Source: Corallococcus macrosporus DSM 14697 (GTDB taxonomy: Bacteria; Myxococcota; Myxococcia; Myxococcales; Myxococcaceae). From it: a stretch of 64,000 nucleotides of DNA. The DNA is taken from NCBI RefSeq assembly GCF_002305895.1, contig NZ_CP022203.1, forward strand, positions 1-64,000, read 5' to 3'. The translations under genes and the position numbers were made by a program. Each line of letters begins with the position of its first letter. The first letter of the stretch is position 1. The notes beneath the pieces are model-generated. The model saw only the letters and a list, made by a program, of their open reading frames with translations. It did no database searches and had not been told where the DNA came from. Positions 12,087 through 15,057 of the stretch are shown one piece after another.

Positions 12087-12250
12087 GGACTCACTCCTCG
12101 GCGGGGACGTCTCTGGGTGGAGGGACGTCTGTAGCGCGGAGGAGGCGCGGGCGCAGGCCCGCCGAACGGAAAATGACCTTCCCATCATCAGCCCGGATTC
12201 ATGAGCTGTCAGGCCCTTCAGGCAATGGGACGGGATGGGAGGAACCGCCA

Positions 12251-12892
12251 TTGAAGATGCGCGCAACGGTGCTGGTCTTGGTCCTCGCCGGGTGCTCCAC
12301 AACACACGGGACGGGTGGGTCTGGTTCCGTCCCATCACCCGGGGTCCAGCCCGCGACGAGGAAGGAGTTGCCCTGGATTCCAGTGCTCGGCGGGCGGATG
12401 AAAACGACCCTCTTCTACGGTCCCTGGCAATGCAGGCTGGAGTTCATGCGAACGTGCCAGCGGGAATGCGCCCGGGTCATGGGCTGCCTATGGCTGGCCG
12501 ACATCAAGCTGGATTGGGAAGGGCGCCTGGTCGTCCCGCCGATTCCAATCAAAGCCAGCAGTCGCTACGGCATCTTCCACTGCTGCTGCGACCATCCCAA
12601 GGTGTCACCGGACAAGAATGAGGCTGAGCGGAAAAGGTGGGAGAACTTCCGGACATCCTTCCGGAAGGACTGGAGCAGGAAGTTCGGTGATTGGCCCGAA
12701 GAGGACGGCGTGGCCTGGCCCGGGCACCACATCCGGGACCTTCATCATGGCGGCGATCCGGTGGACCCCAGCAACATCATCCCCGTGAAGCCGGGCGTGC
12801 ATACCGTCTTCAACAGGGCATATCCCGCCTGCTACAGAGGTGAGGCACCGTGGAATACAGTGGGGCTCAATCTGCCCTACTCGGATAAATGA
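12251..12892 (+). CDS. Lipoprotein with C-terminal HNH/Endo VII-like nuclease domain (SitA-like toxin candidate)
   Basis: A protein of about 213 residues. It begins with a type II signal peptide (RATVLVLVLAGCS; lipobox LAGC). A cysteine-rich middle follows (WQCRLEFMRTCQRECARVMGC, then HCCCDH). The C-terminus carries the histidine-rich signature GHHIRDLHHGGDPVDPSNII ... PVKPGVHTVFN, typical of HNH/Endo VII-fold toxin nucleases with a GHH motif. TTG 12251 is preferred, with GGGAGGAA 6 bases upstream; ATG 12257 is the alternative and also gives a lipoprotein. Its stop overlaps the start of an SMI1/KNR4 immunity-type gene (ATGA). Lipoprotein signal plus nuclease tail plus coupled immunity matches the architecture of Myxococcus SitA toxins passed by outer-membrane exchange. 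That role is inferred. Confidence 0.8.
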   Translation: MKMRATVLVLVLAGCSTTHGTGGSGSVPSPGVQPATRKELPWIPVLGGRMKTTLFYGPWQCRLEFMRTCQRECARVMGCLWLADIKLDWEGRLVVPPIPIKASSRYGIFHCCCDHPKVSPDKNEAERKRWENFRTSFRKDWSRKFGDWPEEDGVAWPGHHIRDLHHGGDPVDPSNIIPVKPGVHTVFNRAYPACYRGEAPWNTVGLNLPYSDK

Positions 12893-13368
12893 CGATGGCC
12901 ACGTCCATGAGCAGCCTGCTCGAAGAGGTCTCCCGCGAGCACTTCCCATACCCGCCCGCCGCACTCGAGGAGGTTGATGCGTTCGAGCGCCGGGTCGGCT
13001 GGAAGTTGGATCCGGACCTGCGCGCCTTCTACTTGCATTGCAATGGAGCGGAGCTGATTGCGCGGCTACCGGACACCCCTTACCGCATCCTCCCGCTGCA
13101 CAAAATCGTCCGGGCGAGGGTGGCCATCTACGGCGAGGATGACGACAAGTGGGGCCCCCCCTCGGTGTACGCGCTCTGCGATGTGCAGGACGGCAACTAC
13201 GTGCTGCTGAGCGTGGCCCGACTGGAAAATGGCCGCTACCCCCTCTTCGACGGCGACCACGAAGCGTGGCCGGACCCGGCGTACTGCAAGCAGATCGCCC
13301 GTTCCTTCTCGGAGTTCCTGGAGCAGGCGCTGCGAACGCGCCGCAGCCTCTACTGGCTGGGGGAGTAG
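12889..13368 (+). CDS. SMI1/KNR4 (SUKH) family immunity protein
   Basis: A 159-residue soluble protein. Its N-terminal part (LLEEVSREHFPYPPAALEEVDAFERRVGWKLDPDLRAFYLHCNGAEL) has the SUKH hallmark: an opening helix, a G-x-x-L-P/D-x-D-L-x-x-F/Y-x-x-x-N-G segment, then beta strands (YRILPLHKIV). SUKH proteins are the commonest immunity superfamily for nuclease toxins. It starts within the stop of the toxin gene, so the two are translated together, and it would neutralise that nuclease in the cytoplasm. Confidence 0.85.
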   Translation: MTMATSMSSLLEEVSREHFPYPPAALEEVDAFERRVGWKLDPDLRAFYLHCNGAELIARLPDTPYRILPLHKIVRARVAIYGEDDDKWGPPSVYALCDVQDGNYVLLSVARLENGRYPLFDGDHEAWPDPAYCKQIARSFSEFLEQALRTRRSLYWLGE

Positions 13369-13465
13369 AGATTTCGTTCAACCGATTCCGCACCGGAGAC
13401 TACCTACGTCGCCTGAGCCTTCTCCTGAACTCGTGGGAGCAATCCACGCATTGCGGTTGAAGCTC

Positions 13466-13762
13466 ATGCTGGTCGATATGGCCGAACAGCAGCGGGGCCT
13501 CGGAGGAGGACTTGGTGTCCTCGTAGACCGCATCGGCCAGCTCCGCATCGTCAGTCACCCCAACGAGCATGGAGTCCCGCACTTCCATGTCGAAATGCGA
13601 AGCGGGCAGGACGCCGCCGTCTACCGAATCGACACGCTGGCGCGCCTTGAGGGCAAACTTCCGCCGAAGTTCGAACGGGTGGTTCAGGCATGGGGGCGCA
13701 CCAACCAGCAATTGCTCCAGAGAACCTGGGATCGCACGCGCCCGACGGATGCTTCATGCTGA
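13466..13762 (+). CDS. DUF4160-like small protein
   Basis: A 98-residue protein. Its core resembles DUF4160: IGQLRIVSHPNEHGVPHFHV, then a segment like YRIDTLARLEGKLPPKFERVVQAW and a C-terminal helix NQQLLQRTWD. DUF4160 genes are often next to small toxin-antitoxin style partners. There is no clear ribosome site; in-frame GTG near 13431 and ATG 13478 are other possible starts. It lies about 100 bases after the SUKH gene, so it may be part of the same accessory block. Confidence 0.65.
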   Translation: MLVDMAEQQRGLGGGLGVLVDRIGQLRIVSHPNEHGVPHFHVEMRSGQDAAVYRIDTLARLEGKLPPKFERVVQAWGRTNQQLLQRTWDRTRPTDASC

Positions 13763-13803
13763 CCATTTCACCGGAAGGTGGCGCGGAGACGCGGCGGTAG
13801 AGG

Positions 13804-15057
13804 TCATCCCCTGACGCGCGCCTCCGCGCTGGCCCCATCGAAGCGCCGCGGGCGCAGCAGCCGCAGCGTCAGCACCAACGCGAGGAACAGCACGCTGGCG
13901 CTCACGGTGACGAAGCGGAGGCCCAGCCGGTCGGCCAGCGCGCCCAGGCCCCACACGCCCGCCGCGTACGCGCCGCCGAGCACCATGCTGAACAGGCTGC
14001 TCATCCGCGCCTGCAGCTCGCGGGGCACGCGCGACTGGCAGTACGCGTGCATCCCGCTCATCAGCATCATGTAGTTGGCGCCCAGCACGCAGATGACGGC
14101 GGCGGCCACCTGCAGCGTGGGTGACAGCCAGTACAGCGTGGCCACGCCGCCAATGGACGTCGCCGCCAGCCCCAGCAGCCTGCGCTGGCCCAGCGTGTCC
14201 ACCAGCGTGCCCACCAGCAGCGCGGCCGTCACCGCGCCCACGCCCTGGCAGGTGACGAGCAGCGACGTGGCCGCCGCGCCCTGGCCGAACACGCGGATGG
14301 CGAACACCGGCACCAGGCCGATGAAGGGCGCCACCAGGCCCGCGGACAGCAGCGTGCCCCACAGCATCAGCGAGATTTCCGAATCGCCCCGCGCCACGGA
14401 GAAGCCGTGGGCAATCTGCTTCCACAGGCCCTGCGTGGCCCGCGCCGCCGTCCGCGTCAGCGTCTTCACCTGCGACAGCGCCACCAGCACCGCGACGAAG
14501 GACAGCGTGTTGACCAGCAGCGCCCACGACGTCCCGCCCACGCTCAGCACCAGCGCGGCCAGCGCCGGGCCAATGATGCGCCCCAGGTTGAACTGCGCCG
14601 AGTTGAGGCTCATGGCGCTGTGCAAATCCCGCGGCGGCACCAGCTCCGCGAGCATCGCGGAGAAGGCCGGGTTGATGAGCGTGCTGGCGCAGCCGTGGAC
14701 GAAGGAGATGACGCCCACCACGGGGACGCTGAGCCGGTGCGTGAAGGCCAGCAGCGTCAGCACGCCCGCGAGCACCAACTGCACCACCGTGCCCAGCGCG
14801 ACGTAGGCCCGCCGGTCGAACCGGTCCGCGAGCGCGCCGCCCACGGGCGACAGCACCACGGCGGGGAGGAAGGTGAGGGCCACGATGCCACCGGTCCACT
14901 CGGCGCGGCCGGTGGCCTCGGTGACGTAGACGCCCATGGCCACCGTCTCCATCCAGGTGCCGATGGTGGAGACCAGGGCTCCCACCCAGACCGCGAAGTA
15001 GCCGGGGTGCTCGAAGGCGCGAAGCGAGGAGAGACGTGGCAGTCGGAGGGCGCGCAC
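13804..15057 (-). CDS. MFS transporter (EntS/MFS_3-like exporter)
   Basis: A 417-residue protein with about 12 hydrophobic helices and the MFS motif A region GGALADRFDRRAYVALG after helix 2. The layout (RAFEHPGYFAVWVGALVSTIGTWMETVAMG at the start, NPAFSAMLAELVPPRDLHSAMSLNSAQFNLGRIIGPALA in helix 4-5) matches the MFS_3 group that includes the enterobactin exporter EntS. It would export a small molecule from the inner membrane; the substrate cannot be told. It is convergent with the DUF4160-like gene. Confidence 0.9.
   Translation of the reverse strand: MRALRLPRLSSLRAFEHPGYFAVWVGALVSTIGTWMETVAMGVYVTEATGRAEWTGGIVALTFLPAVVLSPVGGALADRFDRRAYVALGTVVQLVLAGVLTLLAFTHRLSVPVVGVISFVHGCASTLINPAFSAMLAELVPPRDLHSAMSLNSAQFNLGRIIGPALAALVLSVGGTSWALLVNTLSFVAVLVALSQVKTLTRTAARATQGLWKQIAHGFSVARGDSEISLMLWGTLLSAGLVAPFIGLVPVFAIRVFGQGAAATSLLVTCQGVGAVTAALLVGTLVDTLGQRRLLGLAATSIGGVATLYWLSPTLQVAAAVICVLGANYMMLMSGMHAYCQSRVPRELQARMSSLFSMVLGGAYAAGVWGLGALADRLGLRFVTVSASVLFLALVLTLRLLRPRRFDGASAEARVRG

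Follow-up and report, generated by a model that had tools for sequence, protein, structure and literature searches.

The window, a stretch of 64,000 nucleotides from the social soil bacterium Corallococcus macrosporus DSM 14697, holds a two-gene cassette that we interpret, with a probability of about 0.77, as a kin-discrimination locus working like SitAI via TraAB outer membrane exchange. A short lipoprotein gene (12251-12892) whose C-terminal domain is predicted to be an HNH nuclease is followed by a SUKH-1 (SMI1/KNR4) gene (12889-13368). Both genes, and so the parts of their two products given below with coordinates, lie on the forward (+) strand. A SitA/SitI-like toxin and immunity pair had been proposed in the first-pass annotation of this DNA, and that proposal finds support in the predicted fold, in a lipobox that obeys a published sorting rule, in a constant SUKH partner, in a TraA-positive genome and in a distribution that follows TraA.

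A short predicted lipoprotein with a cysteine-rich N-terminal domain

The toxin gene encodes 213 amino acids, from a TTG start at 12251 to a TGA stop at 12890-12892. Its product opens with MKMRATVLVLVLAG, continues from the lipobox cysteine with CSTT, reads WPGHHIRDLHHGGDPVDPSNIIPVKPGVHTVF in its C-terminal part and ends in WPGHHIRDLHHGGDPVDPSNIIPVKPGVHTVFNRAYPACYRGEAPWNTVGLNLPYSDK. The short lipoprotein with a LAGC lipobox that had been noticed at first reading is indeed present at that place: signal peptide and lipobox span 12251-12295, and the cysteine, Cys15, is invariant in the 24 members of the family that we aligned. The signal peptide is short (14 amino acids), and its match to the LPAM_1 model falls below the cut-off of that model. 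The residue at +2 is serine and that at +7 threonine. Throughout the family, at the loci where they can be assigned, signal peptides end in a lipobox, with lysine never found at +2 nor alanine at +7. In Myxococcus xanthus, the absence of these two residues has been published as characteristic of lipoproteins sorted to the outer membrane (PMC5562445); the lipobox obeys this rule, and the protein is predicted from its sequence to be lipidated and to reside in the outer membrane. The linker that comes next (12296-12346) is probably disordered, model confidence remaining below 50 up to residue 27.

A cysteine-rich beta domain, residues 33-115 (12347-12595), separates this linker from the nuclease. 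Seven of its cysteines (61, 69, 73, 79 and 111-113) are invariant in the 24-member alignment, and we see in it a candidate escort domain. Its fold received no assignment, the Foldseek list obtained with the full-length model being weak and mixed. Profiles of the N- and C-terminal domains match the same places, which disposes of the idea that the same N-terminal domain is joined elsewhere to other toxins; a single match restricted to it, in genome G118, was considered as a separate module and turned out to be a decayed gene. As judged from these coinciding profiles, the family is non-modular.

No Pfam or NCBIfam model matches the toxin of the window, and 23 of its relatives gave at most weak chance matches or lipoprotein-signal matches. 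The gene is nevertheless no chance reading frame. Compared with three homologues about 87% identical, from three other genomes, the toxin has a dN/dS of 0.16-0.24 and the SUKH gene one of 0.12-0.20, values that indicate purifying selection and mark both as real, constrained genes, and the conservation of residues in the toxin leads to the same verdict.

A predicted HNH nuclease at the C-terminus

The last 98 residues (116-213; 12596-12889) are predicted, from structural models and profile searches, to form an HNH nuclease of the colicin, pyocin and Rhs2-CT type, with a beta-beta-alpha core carrying an HH-N-H motif. This motif, G158-H159-H160, N175 and H184 (12722-12802), is invariant in the 24 members, as is Cys194. 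The AlphaFold2 model of the full-length protein, built with the 24-member alignment as input, has a pLDDT of 82.9, residues 1-27 being of low confidence; a second-look alignment of this model with VIA placed HNH nucleases in all four top ranks (two Rhs2-CT entries, a type I-F HNH Cascade and Gme HNH), with Z between 5.0 and 5.5. Modelled alone (pLDDT 80.8), the C-terminal domain retrieved 36 matches with Foldseek, of which 35 were HNH-type nucleases. Rhs2-CT headed the list (probability 1.00, 26% identity, 1.8 A across 64 columns); Gme HNH, colicins E7 and E9 (ColE7, ColE9) and pyocin AP41 came next. With VIA the domain reached a Z of 6.5 with the GVE2 HNH endonuclease and of 5.8 with Rhs2-CT. 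These scores are moderate, with a best Z of 6.5 and no Foldseek E-value below 0.001; it is the agreement across the list that is striking. The lack of an HNH fold in the predicted structure would have counted against the first reading; this check was made and did not refute it.

Searched against the PDB, the profile of the domain found a single match, the AP41 DNase, at an E-value of 0.19 that is not significant alone; the alignment places the HH, N and H residues in register, without gaps. The profile also matches a PF01844 HNH protein from a distant genome of another family (E 5.9e-5). The third zinc-ligand histidine of AP41 aligns with a variable residue of the toxin family, so that the use of metal may differ between the two. 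As for the HNH/Endo VII-type GHH signature initially put forward, the GHH motif is there, but the Pfam models for Tox-GHH and Tox-GHH2 (Zhang 2012) match none of the 24 members at E-values up to 10, and the nearest structures are those of the colicin and pyocin type together with Rhs2-CT.

Rhs2-CT (8cm0, 9t38), an HNH endonuclease toxin paired with RhsI2, is the C-terminal tip of an Rhs protein, unlike the lipoprotein of the window. Colicins E7 and E9 and pyocin AP41 share the HNH core, and are diffusible bacteriocins with Im-type immunity and a third zinc histidine that is unconserved here.

A constant SUKH partner

The downstream gene (12889-13368; 159 amino acids) matches PF09346, SMI1_KNR4, with an E-value of 2.6e-18 and 67.2 bits against a gathering cut-off of 25.4; a search of the PDB with its sequence found no match. 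SUKH proteins are recorded partners of many HNH toxins, ColE7-like ones included (PMC3482391). The gene adjoins the toxin directly downstream at 31 of 31 genome loci and at 8 of 8 loci on viral contigs (39/39 altogether), which bears out the coupling with an SMI1/KNR4 gene announced at the outset. Its precise form is less general: the two reading frames do overlap by four bases (ATGA) at 12889, but in several close homologues the overlap contains no start codon and the SUKH gene begins 2 bp after the toxin stop, which makes the ATG at 12895 an equally good start in the window.

The SUKH gene also outlasts its companion. In Myxococcus sp. RHSTA-1-4 the toxin contains an in-frame stop, in Pyxidicoccus fallax it is broken up between two reading frames, and in both cases the SUKH gene is intact. 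Across 29 loci the identity of SUKH proteins correlates more closely with that of the nuclease domain (r 0.79) than with that of the N-terminal domain (r 0.67), values that none of 2000 permutations reached. Two orphan SUKH genes related to that of the window lie elsewhere in the genome, L044 (G000 4482346-4482804) and L045 (G000 4423862-4424332), the latter following what may be the decayed C-terminal end of a toxin of this family. Constant partnership, survival beside broken toxins, orphans and co-divergence would together be the marks of a toxin and its immunity protein.

One might argue that the lipoprotein serves the envelope of its own cell, degrading extracellular DNA as a nutrient, with the SUKH gene as an unrelated neighbour. 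Scavenging of DNA by lipoprotein nucleases is conceivable in principle; yet a scavenger working outside the cell would have no use for a cytoplasmic SUKH protein, an unrelated neighbour does not fit a gene present at every locus examined, outliving the broken toxin and diverging in step with the nuclease, and the cassette is both mobile and multi-copy. We hold this explanation to be very improbable, and retain the toxin and immunity pair.

A mobile insertion

The cassette lies within an inserted segment of approximately 1.67 kb (12158-13830), between a hydrolase gene and an MFS gene that relatives keep only about 30 bp apart; the bounds were set by the two closest genomes. The neighbouring hydrolase is present in 15 other genomes of the genus, and in 13 of these its gene adjoins the MFS gene with no cassette between them. 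GC content at third codon positions is 0.78 in the toxin and 0.87 in the SUKH gene, against 0.985 in the neighbouring hydrolase, and near homologues of the cassette have different surroundings in other genomes. A search for the terminal repeats that mark transposons gave short matches in GC-rich DNA alone; a perfect 10-bp inverted repeat (12133-12142 and 13821-13830) sits near both ends of the insertion and may be due to chance in GC-rich DNA.

Eight toxin loci are on contigs classed as viral, and in one provirus (L126) the toxin and SUKH genes are flanked on one side by a tail tape-measure gene and on the other by a BRO-N/P63C antirepressor. Published sitAI loci, too, are often on prophages (PMC10433427). 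Sequenced plasmids and phages yielded no member of the family. Two cassettes (L128 and L131) share another viral contig, 2832142748_000002, and a toxin cassette on a viral contig has a DndB-like gene (PF14072; L130, 1194-2699) at a distance of about 2 kb.

The same insertion contains a further reading frame (13466-13762, + strand) belonging to DUF4160 (PF13711, E 2.2e-10), with a weak match, under its cut-off, to the type II toxin DhiT. It was absent beside the other cassettes checked, and is probably a separate passenger. Some 2.8 kb beyond the end of the window, another frame (G000:C1:66767-67084) has an AHH nuclease domain, as judged by its match to PF14412 (E 3.6e-9), and lacks a lipobox; it is probably another polymorphic toxin.

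TraA and a probable route of delivery

Within the genome under study a second cassette is found at 1.40 Mb; a third candidate, at 1519775, was dismissed, since the match lies by chance in a gene for a patatin-like lipoprotein. Matches to the toxin occur in 60 of the order's 145 genomes, up to 10 per genome and about 200 overall (a sum over the table, in which some matches are pieces of split genes); Myxococcus eversor, Myxococcus sp. RHSTA-1-4 and Pyxidicoccus fallax are among the named genomes with relatives. The traA gene of C. macrosporus was identified from its anatomy at 8189278-8191425 (N-terminal domain, Cys-rich repeats, MYXO-CTERM-like end), and an OmpA-type gene that overlaps it was placed as traB (traB-like), traB being checked in this genome alone. 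TraA and the toxin are found together in 59 of the 145 genomes, the toxin alone in 1, TraA alone in 4 and neither in 81, counts that shared ancestry confounds. The toxin-positive genome without a TraA match, G065, is in 800 contigs. The distribution of the toxin follows TraA, in agreement with the published restriction of SitA genes to species with traAB (PMC5562445), but shared ancestry could produce the same pattern, since TraA and the toxin are both confined to one family.

The pair might of course be a genuine toxin and its antidote, delivered by another route (outer-membrane vesicles or some contact system yet to be recognized) against prey or kin. Anatomy alone leaves the route of delivery unproven, and the four TraA-positive genomes without toxin, like the toxin-positive genome without a TraA match, would be at home in such a scheme. 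Against it stand the distribution that follows TraA, the lipobox that meets the outer-membrane rule, and a profile search in which the C-terminal domain was not seen on T6SS or other carriers; the lipoprotein leader itself would speak against T6SS loading. We consider delivery by another route unlikely.

Under the preferred reading, delivery through TraAB, the toxin would be exported, would receive its lipid at Cys15 and would be sorted to the outer membrane; when membranes are exchanged, it would pass from there to a touching cell with a compatible TraA receptor. Helped by its Cys-rich N-terminal domain, it would then reach the cytoplasm of the recipient, where the HNH domain would cut DNA. 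In cells that own the cassette, the cytoplasmic SUKH protein would bind and block the nuclease, so that only neighbours without the cassette would die.

A possible place among the Sit families

Lipoprotein toxins of this sort are a known type of weapon, and the present family, widespread as it is, is nameless in the protein databases checked. Comparison with known SitA proteins, suggested when the locus was first noticed, reveals a SitA-like anatomy but excludes two of the families by their profiles. One of the closest known systems is SitA1/SitI1 of Myxococcus xanthus Mx-alpha (PMC5562445): a lipoprotein toxin with a C-terminal nuclease, a SUKH gene directly downstream, an association with mobile elements and a TraA-positive host. 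Its nuclease is of the WHH type; the pairing of an HH-type nuclease with SUKH is thus already found in SitA1/SitI1 (PMC5562445). Compared by description, SitA1 differs in having an upstream sitB and in belonging to a family with a longer escort domain, whereas here sitB is missing and the N-terminal domain has some 85-100 amino acids.

The genome also carries SitA5 and SitA6 loci, recognized by NCBIfam models. SitA6 (TIGR02269, PF09533) resembles our toxin as a short lipoprotein (about 210 amino acids), non-modular, with a Cys-rich N-terminal domain and an HH nuclease motif; it differs by a KHHIFPQ-motif nuclease and a double-CXXCG immunity family. Membership was rejected, for none of the 24 members matches TIGR02269 or PF09533, and hhalign gives a probability of 1.4%. 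SitA5, defined by the escort domain of NF050093, is likewise an outer-membrane-exchange lipoprotein toxin, unlike ours with an escort domain of about 260 amino acids and an AHH nuclease; it was rejected in turn, the NCBIfam SitA5 model matching none of the 24 members and hhalign finding only the signal peptide in common. NF050094, considered as a possible neighbouring Sit model, is unrelated. SitA4, compared by description, has an AHH nuclease (PF14412; PMC8546572), a model with no match in the 24 members.

The family may also have been published already, as SitA7, in which case the mechanism would be the one we propose and the naming alone would differ. By its published description (PMC8546572), SitA7 is a non-modular lipoprotein of the SitA kind that carries a predicted DNase; the present family is similarly non-modular, has a predicted DNase and abounds in TraA-positive genomes, a match by description, and NCBIfam models were seen for SitA5 and SitA6 only. 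On the other side, published escort domains have about 375 amino acids (PMC8546572) against about 85-100 here, yet SitA6 is short too (TIGR02269, 209 positions), and the TraA-positive genomes G106, G119 and G077 lack the family, though the authors say that genomes contain all six families. We find the identity with SitA7 possible and rather doubtful. Tentatively, at odds not far short of even, we would place the cassette in a family of outer-membrane-exchange toxins that is as yet unpublished, additional to the six SitA families and present in nearly all the TraA-positive myxobacteria examined. It would be very short, its Cys-rich N-terminal domain of about 85-100 residues serving as the whole entry module, with an HNH DNase and a SUKH antidote. 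Less probably, the family is a divergent branch of another SitA family.

Possible consequences for myxobacterial kin discrimination

If this is true, nearly every myxobacterium that exchanges outer membrane carries extra kin-killing cassettes that curated databases leave unnamed, so that predictions of strain coexistence would be incomplete. The entry module would be unusually small, and thus a convenient object for the question of how toxins pass from the outer membrane to the cytoplasm. Finally, comparison with the empty site displays the gain of a single cassette, an event of the kind thought to split social groups.
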